A DNA stretch of 64,000 nucleotides from Rutstroemia sp. NJR-2017a BVV2 (lineage: Eukaryota > Ascomycota > Leotiomycetes > Helotiales > Rutstroemiaceae), in NCBI GenBank assembly GCA_002946415.1, contig NJPS01000006.1, positions 434,001 through 498,000 of the forward strand, read 5' to 3'. The position numbers and the translations under genes were made by a program. Below are positions 34,379-61,077 of the stretch, in pieces (positions within the stretch are counted from its first letter, which is position 1; every line of letters begins with the position of its first letter). Under the pieces are notes generated by a model. That model saw nothing but the letters and a program-made list of their open reading frames with translations, had not been told where the DNA came from and searched no databases.

Positions 34379-34521
34379 GCCTTCTTAGCTCAGTTGGTAG
34401 AGTCAGTACACCCCTATCTTCAATATCCAACAATATTAATTCTAACATTCATTCAGGCGCGACACTAGTAACTTAATACTAAGAAATGTCGAGGTCAACG
34501 GTTCGACTCCGTTAGAAGGCA
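34379..34521 (+). tRNA. tRNA-Thr(AGU), copy 1, with D-stem insert and anticodon intron
   Basis: The mature parts are 34379-34401, 34457-34470 and 34486-34521, together 73 nt with discriminator A73. They form a complete cloverleaf: acceptor GCCTTCT/AGAAGGC, D stem GCTC/GAGC, anticodon stem CGACA/TGTCG with loop CTAGTAA (anticodon AGT), T stem AACGG/CCGTT with TTCGACT. Box A (34386-34397, TAGCTCAGTTGG) and box B (34500-34510, GGTTCGACTCC) are perfect, and a T5 terminator lies at 34526-34530. Two segments must be removed: 34471-34485 is a canonical 15-nt intron after position 37 whose TACT can pair with the anticodon, and 34402-34456 is a 55-nt insert between positions 23 and 24 with GT...CTAAC...CAG features. 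A second copy at 59599 has the same layout. Confidence 0.87.
34402..34456 (+). other. Spliceosome-like 55-nt intron inside the tRNA-Thr D stem (copy 1)
   Basis: Starts GTCAGT, carries TTCTAAC 11-12 bases before the end and finishes TTCAG. Removing exactly this segment restores GAGC to pair with GCTC. The donor has C at position 3, weaker than in copy 2. I see no bulge-helix-bulge pairing that would suit the tRNA splicing endonuclease. Confidence 0.65.
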
Positions 34522-55756: not shown

Positions 55757-56697
55757 AAGCTTGTCTAAATATGTTAGTTTCAATCAAATGTTCTTTCCAG
55801 TTGGCCAATACCTTCAAAGGAATCAGATGTTCTTTTCTTGAAGCAATTGCAGGAAAACCATGGTGACAAAGACTCCCATGCCTAAGACCATACAAGAGAC
55901 TGGTTCCATGTTGATGGGGGTATTCAAAAAGTGCTGTTGGATGATTGCAGTGTGTGCAGAAAATGCTGAGTGCTTACCGATTCCAAAGGAAATCATGAAG
56001 CAAGCAGGAAGATATACTCTTTCCATCCCCCATACAGCTGGTCGATGCTAACCAAGTTGTCTGCAGGTGAGTATTGAGGGATTTTTGCTACTACGTGAAT
56101 CTTGCTTTTAAAAATCCCTCATGCAAACGTCCCCGCCCCAGCTTGCTGCAGGATCAGCTCGGCGACAGAGACATTTATGTACCCTACCAACATGTTTTCA
56201 AAAAATGAAATGAGCGATAAACAGGACTTCTGTTGACTTGCATCCGAAGTCCAACCAAACTAGGTTGTAAATGGGGTGGAAACGGTAGGATAACATGCAC
56301 AGGGTAGGGAAAGACGAGGAAAGACGAAAACGAAGATAATGCAGAGCGACGTGACCAAGCTACACAATGTATGTGATAGACGTCACGACAAGATGTTTAA
56401 GATAGTCCTGAAACACTTCACCAAAGCCATTCGCTTGATAATGACATGAATGTCCACTATAGCCGAAATCTTGGAAAATGTAACTTTTCAGAAGAAGAAA
56501 ATATCTCGCGTAGTACAAGACAGAGCGAGTAACCTACAGCCTGAAAGCCTTAGGCCAAAAATGGTTCTCTAGGCGCTCTGTCAATTGAGGACCCTGGAAA
56601 TAATTCAACATACTTCGATCATTGCGAAATTGTTCAATAAAGTCATGATTGAAGAGACTGCCACTCATTCATCTGTGTAACACGAGGCACATGTGCA
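55757..56697. other. Intergenic stretch, about 0.94 kb
   Basis: Between two genes on the plus strand. A hydrophobic minus-strand frame around 55823-56026 has no supporting partner exon. The stretch near 56600-56697 should be the phosphodiesterase promoter. Confidence 0.4.
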
Positions 56698-59035
56698 ATG
56701 CCGTCAAAAATCTTTCGAAACCCTGCGGGCGGGGATGCATCCCTTCTATCTCCATCTAATTACGACGACGATGCTCCGTCCGTACACTCGAGTCGAAGCG
56801 AAGACGATAGCGATAGCGAAGACGATGAGGCTCTAAATAGAGCGCGAACATCGGCGGACATTAGGAGGTACGATCAAAGTGTGCTGTTAGATGAGGAAGA
56901 ACGAGATAAACTGTTGGAGGACAATAGGCGCAGCGCACAAGGTGGAAATGGGACTGCCGGGGGTTTAGAGGGATTACGGTCCGGCATCAAAGGCCTCTGG
57001 AGCAAGAGCCATCAGCGATTGCCTGGCATTGAGGACAATGATTCTGCGCATCAAGAAGATGTAGTGGATACCGGAGAAAAAAGACGGCAGCGGAGGATAA
57101 GAAGACAGAGGCGGAAAGAGAAGCTAATGGAGGACGCAAGTCACGGAGAGGATGGCGAATTGATGTATGAAATGGAACAGGGCAGAATTAAAGAAGGTAG
57201 CGCAACCGGCTCTAGCAGCGACACTGATGAGAGTGATGATCTCGACCGCCGTGGCTTGTTGAACATACACGATGAGAACATGCAGCGGAGGAAGAGACGT
57301 TGGGCTTGGTGCGCTATTTACTTGTTGATTGTCCTAGGTTTCATGGCACTTTTGCTCGTAGCATGGAAGTTGTCGCAAAAGGCTCGTCTCACGAAAGAAA
57401 ACCAAAAATTCCTAAGCAATGGAACAGCCTTGTTTGCTCCCACGACGATTCTAATCAGTCTTGATGGTTTCCGAGCCGACTTCTTGAACCGTGGTCTGAC
57501 TCCTCGATTGAATACTTTTGTCCAGGAGGGTGTATCACCCGTGTATATGATGCCGAGTTTTCCCTCGGTCACTTTCCCAAATCACTACACCTTGGTTACA
57601 GGACTCTATCCGGAATCTCATGGGGTTGTGGGAAACACGTTTTGGGATGTCGAACTGCAGGAGGAATTCTATTATACCCACCCCTCGGCAATGCATAAGA
57701 AATGGTGGGGTGGTGAACCCTTGTGGGTCACCGCGGAAAATCAAGGGATCAGAACTGCCATACATATGTGGCCTGGAAGCGAAGCACACATTATGGATGT
57801 TGAACCTGCGTATCTGGACAAGTACAATGGGAAAGAGCCTCTTTCAAACAAAGTTAGCAGAGTTCTCGAGCTATTGGACAAACCTGGCCAGGAAGATGAT
57901 AAAGTAGCAGTGGAAGACATGAGACCCCAACTTATTGCCGCATACGTACCAAATGTGGATGCTGATGGTCATCTTTATGGACCGAACAGCACTGAAATTC
58001 GAGTTACCATCTCCGACGTTGATACTATGCTTGACAATCTATTTAAAGGGCTGGAAACTCGAAACTTGACAAACATTGTCAATGTTGTGGTGGTATCGGA
58101 TCACGGAATGGCTACCACAGACACTACTCGTCTCATTCAGTTAGAAGACTTGATTGATACGAGCTTGATTGAGCACACAGATGGCTGGCCTCTGTTTGGA
58201 CTTCGGCCTAAAGATCCTACGGATCTCCAGGCTTTGTATGACGGTTTGGCCGCAAAGGCAGCCACAAATCCGAACATTGACGTCTATCTGCGTGATGTGA
58301 ATATGCCTGAGAGGTATCATTTCTCCACAAACGAGCGCATTGCTCCTCTCTGGATTGTACCGAAGACTGGCTGGGCAATCGTCCACAAGGACGAGTTAGA
58401 TGTGGTTGATGCGAAGGCGAAAGGGATTGCATACCATCCTCGCGGGTTGCACGGTTATGATCACGAACATCCACTCATGAGAGCCATTTTCATTGCTAGA
58501 GGACCGGCCTTTCCACATGAGCCTAATAGCCGTGTTGAACCATTCCGTAAGCCAGTACTACCTTTTCCTGCAAGCATTTGACTAACCTAAACTAGAAAAC
58601 ATCGAAGTTTACAACATTATCTGTGATTCTCTCGCGCTGACCCCAAAACCCAACAATGGCACATTACGTCTTCCGCTCAAACCCGTTGGTCTTCACTCGG
58701 ACGAAACCTCTCCTCCTGAACCTGCCGATCCCGAGCCTACGCCCTCGTTATCGGATGCGGCACCGGATGCGATCCTCTCCATATCACCAATCGAAGCTAG
58801 TTCCGCCGCGGATCCTAACGTGGTGCCGCCGCATATGGTAGGCGTTGATACACCAGATAATCCTGCAGAAGACGACACGAATGTGGATCGGCCAGTAGTT
58901 GAGGATGAGAGCGGAATGACGGAAGAAGAGAAGAACTGGTGGGAGTGGTTCAAAGGGGAATTGGACGACCTCAAAGGCTGGATTGGAGGTTTTGTCCAAA
59001 GTGGTGGGAAGAACGAAACCCAGGCGGGCAAATAG
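56698..59035 (+). CDS. Membrane-anchored nucleotide pyrophosphatase/phosphodiesterase (NPP family)
   Basis: Exons 56698-58546 and 58596-59035 are joined in phase (49-nt GTAAGC...TAG intron), giving 762 residues. It is a type II membrane enzyme of the alkaline-phosphatase superfamily, related to yeast Npp1/Npp2, that cleaves nucleotide phosphodiester or pyrophosphate bonds outside the cytosol. The cytosolic N-terminus has 200 acidic and basic residues, followed by a signal anchor at about 202-225 (YLLIVLGFMALLLVAWKL). Metal and catalytic residues are visible: D256 in LISLDGFRADF, nucleophile T292 in PSFPSVTFPNHYTLV, D421 and H425 in VDADGHLYGP, D468 and H469 in VVSDHGMATTD, and a C-terminal HGYDHEHPLM with H585. 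The Pro/Asp/Glu-rich last 110 residues end with a Trp-rich WWEWFKGELDDLKGWIGGF. Confidence 0.9.
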
Positions 59036-59598: not shown

Positions 59599-59740
59599 GC
59601 CTCTTTAGCTCAGTTGGTAGAGTGAGTCCACCCATCTTCATCATCCAACAACATCAAATACTAATCATTCAACAGGCGCGACACTAGTAACTTCATACTA
59701 AGAAATGTCGAGGTCAACGGTTCGACTCCGTTAGGAGGCA
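59599..59740 (+). tRNA. tRNA-Thr(AGU), copy 2, with D-stem insert and anticodon intron
   Basis: The mature parts are 59599-59621, 59676-59689 and 59705-59740, together 73 nt. Acceptor GCCTCTT/AGGAGGC contains one T-G pair; D, anticodon and T arms are identical to copy 1, with anticodon AGT in the loop CTAGTAA and discriminator A73. Box A (59606-59617) and box B (59719-59729) are intact, with T4 at 59756-59759 and T5 at 59764-59768. The 15-nt canonical intron (59690-59704) differs from copy 1 at one base and keeps the TACT that pairs with the anticodon. The 54-nt insert (59622-59675) has GTGAGT, a TACTAAT branch-like box and CAACAG. Against copy 1, pair 5-68 changes from T-A to C-G, a compensatory change that supports function. 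Confidence 0.88.
59622..59675 (+). other. Spliceosome-like 54-nt intron inside the tRNA-Thr D stem (copy 2)
   Basis: Donor GTGAGT, branch-like TACTAAT 12 bases before the end and acceptor CAACAG are as good as in the protein-coding introns of this window, which are of similar length (45-60 nt). The segment is alignable with the insert in copy 1 (shared CACCC, ATCTTCA, ATCCAACAA and CATTCA blocks), so the two descend from one ancestor. Precise removal restores the D stem. Confidence 0.72.
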
Positions 59741-61077
59741 CTTCATGAGACATTCTTTTGTTATTTTTGCATTGAATGAGGATTGCTATGATATAGTGAG
59801 GTGAGAAGTTTTGAGTGATGGATATGTTGTAGGAGATACTTTTTGCCTTCTTTTTGCATGTACTGTGTGTGGGGTTGATAAACCCTCGGATCTGGGTGGT
59901 GCAGCGCGCTACAGATTTAGGCGGAGTGCCCCTGAGAACAGATATCTTCTCTTCACTGCAGTAGACGAATACTTGAAGGAGGTTGCAAGAAGGAACAAGG
60001 ATGAATATGTTATCATTTTGAATAATATGAGGGTTTGGGTAAGTTCTCTGGTTTTTCTCCTTGAGAATGACTGGTGAGCTTCTTTTCCAGCTTGAGAAGA
60101 ACTCTGGATTCTCCGGATCAGGGTGCTGCCGCGATTTTCCAATGGTAATGCGGACGAGATAGTGGTTCTAACATAACTCGATCGACTATGGGAATTTCAT
60201 GAGAAGCCCGGAGCTCTTTTTACAGAGTGAGATCAACGTGTTGGAACTTCATTGGGTCTACGATATTCGTCAACTTCAATTTGGAGAATCTCCATATGAT
60301 ATCCGCGGAACGCATGTTCACTGTTCTTGCATCACCCATGCCTACCATATTATGCATGTAGCTTCAGGCTAAGTAGTGCTGGCTTCGGAGGTGGTTCTGA
60401 AGACCAGTTAATATATTAGCCTCGGATACCTTCCCGGAATTGGGTTTTCCAGAGGAAGCCTTGCACGTCTTATCCTGTGGGCTGTTCATTCTGTCGAGCT
60501 CATCACGGGCCTGAGTATGTTCAAAGACCTTCTGGTGGTGACACTGCTTGGCGCCTCGGGAATATTTGTTACATTTCTTGGTCTCTATGTCCTATTCGTT
60601 GAGAAAAGTCAACTTGTACGAAAGCTCACTGTTAATAAAGGTTGGTGCGGAGGGAAGGGGAAGTTACACTTTATGTTGTTTGTTGAAATTCCATTATGTG
60701 TTTGCTGTGGTGTGAAACTCAGATCTGGATAGATTATAAGGATTGTCTCGGGACACTGGCGAGATTCAACGTCTCAATACCAGTGAATTATCGATATACT
60801 CAGATTGACGTATAGGATTCCCACATTACCGTACTAACGGCCGCTCCTTCCTCGTTCGTACGGCATGGAGAGTTTGCGTCCATTTTGCCATCTTTAAATC
60901 CAACAACGACACACACATCGAAACTTTTACGAACAAGTCCAGCGCAATCGAGTGTTTCCGTACCAGCAAAGACCAAGCCCGAAACTTCAACCATCAAATG
61001 CTCACACACTCCAACGACTTACTAGTTCTACTTTCGTCTACGATTCTCTATCTCTAGCCGTCGCTATCGCCTTCAAA
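59741..61077. other. Stretch without a supportable gene, about 1.3 kb
   Basis: A frame at about 59811-60038 (with RYRFRRSAPENRYLLFTAVD) ends at a possible GTAAGT donor, followed by a possible CCAG acceptor at about 60090. The downstream frame soon stops. Another hydrophobic frame lies at 60517-60732. Together they could be a decayed gene, but I cannot assemble one or name a family. Confidence 0.3.
59756..59768 (+). terminator. Pol III terminator, tRNA-Thr copy 2
   Basis: T4 followed four bases later by T5, starting 16 bases after the tRNA 3' end. The first run is short, so the second may act as backup. Confidence 0.6.

Follow-up and report, generated by a model that had tools for sequence, protein, structure and literature searches.

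The locus described here raises the question of whether a nuclear tRNA gene can carry an intron of the spliceosomal type, and how such a gene would then give rise to a tRNA. It lies in a 64,000-nt stretch of DNA (hereafter the window), which is part of contig C56 in the 43.4-Mb assembly of Rutstroemia sp. NJR-2017a BVV2, a helotialean ascomycete; the window protein at 56653-58578 shows 100% identity over 96% of its length with a deposited protein of this same Rutstroemia. A sequence-only reading had proposed that a tRNA-Thr gene at 59599-59740 becomes a complete cloverleaf once two segments are taken out, a 54-nt insert between tRNA positions 23 and 24 (23|24) and a 15-nt intron at 37/38. We removed the insert in silico and found that 21/21 stem pairs form and that ARAGORN recognises Thr(agt) in the spliced sequence, placing an intron of 15 nt at 37/38, exactly as that reading had it. 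In the intact 64,000-nt window ARAGORN, and Rfam at gathering scores, gave no match.

The anatomy of this gene, tRNA-Thr(AGT) copy 2, is as follows, all features being on the + strand. Exon 1 (59599..59621) holds tRNA positions 1-23, with box A assigned by pattern at 59606-59617. The spliceosomal-type intron (59622..59675) has the form GTGAGT...TACTAAT...CAACAG, so the three signals named in the sequence-only reading can be read directly in the DNA; the branch-site motif TACTAAT occupies 59659..59665, and its CTAAT ends 10 nt from the 3′ end of the insert. Exon 2 (59676..59740) comprises positions 24-73, with box B at 59719-59729, and is split by the canonical anticodon-loop intron at 59690..59704, which was called by ARAGORN on the spliced gene and placed from the sequence. 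The first downstream T-run, a Pol III terminator-like TTTT, lies at 59756..59759. The insert can be removed in 2 registers that give an identical product, and only 1 of the 2 has GT..AG ends.

The insert had also been likened, in signals and in length, to the introns of neighbouring protein genes. This likeness was borne out by one 49-nt intron predicted in a phosphodiesterase gene at 58547..58595 (+; GTAAGC...GACTAAC...CTAG), which fits the deposited protein P0001, since that protein matches the window in 2 pieces, one ending at 58548 and the other starting at 58592. The inserts found in tRNA genes of this genome (48-59 nt, see below) thus resemble protein-gene introns in both respects, the comparison being with this one protein-consistent example. 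A scan of neighbouring protein genes gave 33 overlapping candidate introns of 43-80 nt, all predicted; because GT, CTRAY and YAG were built into its search criteria, these candidates serve to compare lengths only and not signals.

A DNA search with the whole gene placed 3 Thr(AGT) genes in the genome: copy 2, copy 1 (34379-34521, also in the window) and one more at C40:494000-494141. Each of them contains the insert at the identical site. In copy 1 (+ strand), exon 1 (34379..34401) is followed by a 55-nt spliceosomal-type intron (34402..34456; GTCAGT...TTCTAAC...TTCAG), with the branch-site motif TTCTAAC read at 34440..34446, and then by exon 2 with its 15-nt 37/38 intron (34457..34521). Outside the insert, and with the 37/38 intron included, the Thr copies agree at 84-86 of 87-88 aligned bases, while the inserts agree at 31-40 of 53-54 bases and keep GT, CTAAY and CAG. 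The same pattern was seen among all paralogues with differing inserts, whose exons are 95-100% alike (79/83 to 83/83) and whose inserts are 44-74% alike (23/52 to 40/54), with GT, CTAAY and YAG kept despite this divergence. A genome search with the box A word TAGCTCAGTNGG returned 15 places, and the tRNAs read among them were the 3 Thr(AGT) genes, 2 Ile(AAT) genes and 1 decayed Ile-like copy. Neither the best-scoring candidates of the whole-gene DNA search nor the 15 TAGCTCAGTNGG places included an uninterrupted Thr(AGT) gene, intact copies elsewhere being the main observation that the sequence-only reading had named as refuting it.

The arrangement extends well beyond tRNA-Thr. Inserts were found in 13 genes at 7 tRNA positions and in 7 isoacceptors, with 10 of these genes, at 6 positions, lying outside the Thr family; this recurrence, with all core signals present each time, supports the earlier suggestion that an intron of the spliceosomal type interrupts a nuclear tRNA gene. 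In addition to Thr(AGT) x3 at 23|24, the set consists of Ser(AGA) x3 with a 54-55 nt insert at the 3′ edge of the variable arm (GTAAGC...ACTAAT or TACTAAC...CAG), Pro(TGG) x3 at 10|11, Trp(CCA) at 6|7, Ile(TAT) at 13|14, Arg(CCT) at 4|5 and Arg(TCT) at 53|54, inside box B. Insert lengths across the 13 genes are 48-59 nt. Anticodons are ARAGORN assignments on the spliced sequences, and ARAGORN also places an intron at 37/38 in 8/13 genes (Thr x3, Pro x3, Ile and Arg(CCT)).

These genes were reached by several routes. A tRNA covariance search of the genome gave 62 matches, and ARAGORN, run on 55 loci covering most of them, found a tRNA in all but 2; these 2, the weakest covariance rows, are Arg(CCT) and Arg(TCT), which were read by eye. 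The Pro and Ile genes came from composite motif searches, as did Trp, which is also among the 62 covariance matches. In all, 9/13 genes (Thr x3, Ser x3, Arg x2, Trp) were found without use of the branch motif, and Pro x3 and Ile through it. Composite motif matches were about as frequent as those of a reversed-pattern control (41 vs 41, 42 vs 39 and 44 vs 42), so the evidence here is the tRNA structure of the matches and not their number. Contig pairs C25/C74, C17/C75 and C8/C37 bear the same tRNA matches, so that the assembly may hold some contigs twice; Trp in its interrupted form is present on both C25 and C74 and was counted once. Genome DNA searches with one Ser(AGA) and one Pro(TGG) gene gave 3 + 3 places, 3/3 interrupted in each family, and no uninterrupted gene of either kind was found among the best-scoring candidates of these whole-gene searches. 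The interrupted Ile(TAT), Arg(CCT) and Arg(TCT) genes are likely the only copies of each. For Trp(CCA), the joined exons are identical (72/72) to an uninterrupted Trp gene at C4.

Further searches added no new ectopic insert. Forty further box B places, among the first 100 of 328 matches, yielded 8 that passed a T-arm and T-run filter, 4 of which are tRNA genes (L141, L144, L158, L174), all 4 free of such an insert. Other lengthened tRNA genes that were read have inserts at the anticodon loop only. Searching outside the genome returned 0 matches in the contigs of other genomes and 1 match in viral contigs, which proved on reading to be an ordinary tRNA lacking an insert of this kind.

All 13 inserts begin with GT, end with YAG and contain YTRAY, which is CTRAY in 12/13, and the distance from the end of the branch motif to the 3′ end of the insert is 9-14 nt. 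Less in keeping with spliceosomal introns are the weaker branch motif TTAAC of Arg(CCT) and the unusual donors GTCAGT in 2 Thr copies and GTAATT in Pro_a. Shuffled inserts combined GT, YTRAY and YAG at a rate of <=0.0005 per gene (2000 shuffles for each of the 13). Removal of the inserts restored a tRNA recognised by ARAGORN in 13/13 genes and 269/273 stem pairs, the missing ones being 1 D-stem pair in each Ser and 1 anticodon-stem pair in Ile. Left unspliced, 6/13 genes received no ARAGORN call (Pro x3, Ile, Arg(CCT) and Arg(TCT)), Thr x3 were given wrong isotypes, Trp was displaced and Ser x3 were called as Ser with a misplaced intron. When the removed segment was shifted by -8 to 8, 5 to 13 of the 13 genes were still called; ARAGORN is thus too tolerant of shifts to be more than a weak control, and the case for the register is made instead by the comparison of stem pairs and GT..AG ends among registers, in which each of the 13 genes has GT..AG in exactly 1 of its equivalent removal registers.

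Four things can be read from the DNA itself: the anatomy of these genes, a cloverleaf that is exactly restored, inserts that recur in 13 genes at 7 positions and, in the searches made, no intact gene for Thr(AGT), Ser(AGA) or Pro(TGG). On this basis we consider it highly probable that these are functional nuclear tRNA genes with short U2-type introns removed by the spliceosome, the 37/38 introns being cut separately by the tRNA endonuclease. For the route from gene to tRNA we infer Pol III transcription, lariat splicing and splicing ahead of endonuclease cleavage. An interrupted gene would be transcribed, most likely by Pol III, into a precursor RNA in which the major spliceosome would recognise GT as donor, YTRAY as branch site and YAG as acceptor; the 48-59 nt insert would be excised and the exons joined, restoring the cloverleaf, after which RNase P and RNase Z would finish the tRNA, together with tRNA endonuclease and ligase where a 37/38 intron is present. 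The accessible text of PMC3978253 has the endonuclease that cuts 37/38 introns depending on the place of its site in the cloverleaf, so that an insert breaking the D arm or the acceptor stem would probably be removed first in the 8 double-intron genes. As to origin, the inserts could possibly have arisen by reverse splicing or by an introner-like event.

If this is so, it is likely, although we hold this wider reading less firmly, that the spliceosome is an obligatory tRNA-processing enzyme in this fungus. Thr(AGT), Ser(AGA), Pro(TGG) and probably Ile(TAT), Arg(CCT) and Arg(TCT) would need it, two unrelated splicing machines would act on each tRNA of the 8 double-intron genes, introns would have been gained repeatedly, at sites as far apart as the acceptor stem and the T arm, and the 3′ splice site would itself rebuild box A in 2/3 Pro(TGG) genes.

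Who transcribes these genes is the point at which an alternative carries most weight. The inserts could be spliceosomal introns in genes that are, in part or in whole, driven by Pol II or by an upstream TATA element, with the tRNA cut out of the spliced RNA. Promoter elements were compared across the set. In Thr and Ser the boxes fall in different exons, box A in the first and box B in the second, and the spacing between them is lengthened. Both boxes lie whole within exons, by the pattern used, in 7/13 genes (Thr x3, Ser x3 and Arg(CCT), the last with box A displaced). Of the intact box A, box B and T-run ascribed to this arrangement by the sequence-only reading, the two boxes thus hold for the Thr copies but not for Pro(TGG), Ile(TAT), Trp, Arg(CCT) and Arg(TCT), where the insert splits or displaces one of them. 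In Pro_b, Pro_c and Arg(TCT) the match to a box runs across the insert junction: in the two Pro genes the 3′ splice site TAG joined to TTCAGTGG makes a box A match across the junction, and the 3′ splice site of Arg(TCT) leaves behind a word, AGTTCGAGTC, that resembles box B. No box A match was seen in Pro_a or Ile and no box B match in Trp. Pro_b, Pro_c, Trp and Arg(CCT) each have a single box A match, and it begins 59-66 nt downstream of the mature 5′ end where 7 nt would be usual; that of Trp (at 62 nt) and that of Arg(CCT) (at 59 nt) are entirely in exon 2.

The insert of Pro, Trp and Arg(CCT) lies ahead of box A or within it. The displaced or missing box A of these genes and of Ile is awkward for ordinary Pol III start-site choice, and TATA-like words do precede exon 1, at -47 in Pro_a, -49 in Pro_b, -26 in Pro_c and -54 in Trp, with a 6-of-7 word at -19 in Arg(CCT), within 41 nt of upstream sequence. 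Ordinary tRNA genes, however, have a similar upstream layout. TATA-like words (6 or 7 of 7) were found upstream of 57/70 distinct ordinary tRNA regions (median -44; a raw count with no shuffle baseline) and of 10/13 interrupted genes, suggesting that in this fungus TATA elements may help to determine where Pol III starts. CAA occurs in the 30 nt ahead of 13/13 interrupted and 63/70 ordinary genes, against a shuffle expectation of 0.675. T-runs of 4-8 T follow all 13 interrupted genes, and the intact box A in exon 1 of Thr and Ser also speaks for Pol III. We therefore regard the use of Pol II or an upstream TATA in place of ordinary Pol III transcription as unlikely.

Even less likely, in our judgement very much so, is that the tRNA endonuclease removes the inserts as ectopic tRNA introns, at sites resembling a bulge-helix-bulge, as happens in Cyanidioschyzon or crenarchaea. 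Endonuclease introns need no GT, branch motif or YAG. Among the 46 anticodon introns that ARAGORN called in this same genome, GT..YAG was present in 0/46 in any of 7 registers, compared with GT, branch motif and YAG in 13/13 inserts. Only 2 of the 12 control introns longer than 33 nt, those of the 46 long enough for the branch test, had YTRAY near the end. The narrow range of insert lengths (48-59 nt) likewise contrasts with the 10 to 65 nt of the 46 controls. On the other side, a bulge-helix-bulge test based on central-helix counts gave like values for the inserts, 43 control introns and shuffles and did not separate them, and ectopic introns at such positions are described for algae and archaea in the accessible part of PMC3978253. 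That the interrupted loci are silent pseudogenes, with uninterrupted genes elsewhere supplying the tRNAs, is scarcely credible, given that exons are nearly identical while inserts and flanks diverge with splice signals kept and that every Thr(AGT), Ser(AGA) and Pro(TGG) gene located was an interrupted one, even though an uninterrupted Trp(CCA) copy exists and the genome searches score only the best candidates.

Other candidates were rejected. Chance or an assembly artefact is at odds with 3 diverged Thr copies, 13 genes and kept signals. The inserts also differ from the canonical 37/38 intron, which likewise interrupts a nuclear tRNA gene, by their location at seven other positions (4|5, 6|7, 10|11, 13|14, 23|24, the variable arm and 53|54). 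As for a high-copy introner family, whole Thr, Ser and Pro genes with their inserts matched only their paralogues, in searches that covered these three families. Between families, 8/59 insert pairs were similar at p <= 0.05 in a simple shuffle test, vs 3 expected, an excess that perhaps reflects shared A- and C-rich composition or the relatedness of the counted paralogues.

Spliceosomal removal from a tRNA precursor would have partial precedents. Nuclear tRNA introns are described as short and exclusively at 37/38, with bulge-helix-bulge-type exceptions in algae, nucleomorphs and archaea, in the accessible text of PMC3978253. In red algae, nucleomorphs and archaea, ectopic introns and permuted tRNAs share with our inserts their non-canonical tRNA positions, but they are ascribed to tRNA endonuclease, whereas the inserts here carry spliceosomal signals. 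The available portion of PMC13148404 deals with the ordinary tRNA introns of a yeast. In fission yeast, U6, a Pol III RNA, bears an mRNA-type intron (PMC10484740, accessible portion), and the likeness to the present case is a spliceosomal intron within a short structured Pol III RNA; the host, in contrast, is part of the spliceosome, and its intron is ascribed to reverse splicing near the catalytic nucleotides, whereas here the hosts are tRNAs and the positions are 7. This genome has one U6 match, 106 bases long, which spans the whole model (positions 1-105) with no insert, and an intron in its U6 was rejected accordingly. Fungal U3 snoRNA genes have introns in 138/310 cases, judged normal spliceosomal introns in the accessible part of PMC5832005, and they resemble ours in their GT-AG ends, RCTRAY-type branch sites, noncoding host and the occurrence of genomes with both intron-plus and intron-less copies. 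Unlike the inserts, which are 48-59 nt and scattered over stems and loops, the U3 introns described there average 92 nt and cluster in one stem-loop, and 8/13 of our host genes in addition hold a 37/38 intron. The sequence-only reading had presented a GT-AG intron in a Pol III transcript as new; in that broad form the statement yields to U6 and U3, which appear to be the nearest precedents, and the tRNA host appears to be the new element. In searches of the open-access literature, outside which most subscription journals lie, we recognised no report of spliceosomal introns in tRNA genes.

If confirmed, these findings would make tRNA supply in Rutstroemia sp. dependent on the spliceosome and would provide a natural setting in which to study how introns in short, probably uncapped RNAs are found by the spliceosome. 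The same setting would serve to study intron gain, with the Trp pair as a with/without comparison at base resolution, and the response of Pol III to a box A that is displaced. Genes of this kind can escape tRNA finders, as the blank window and the six uncalled unspliced genes illustrate.

Several minor observations were made along the way. tRNA-Phe and tRNA-Tyr genes were not found among the tRNA genes identified in the genome, the 15 TAGCTCAGTNGG places being Thr(AGT), Ile(AAT) and non-tRNA stretches as far as read; the Phe and Tyr genes may hold split boxes and ectopic introns, or simply a different box A. The decayed Ile(AAT)-like copy (L128, G000:C33:496619) has a changed anticodon loop and T arm. 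Locus L116 (G000:C4:210880-211130) has a 3′ part resembling the neighbouring Leu(TAG)-type gene (L024) and an unrecognised 5′ half, and is either a truncated copy or the carrier of an unrecognised insert. Finally, L028 (G000:C34:1185143-1185793) contains 2 adjacent tRNA-like genes with a long anticodon-loop insert, perhaps decaying copies, one of which ARAGORN calls as Met(cat), 65 nt.
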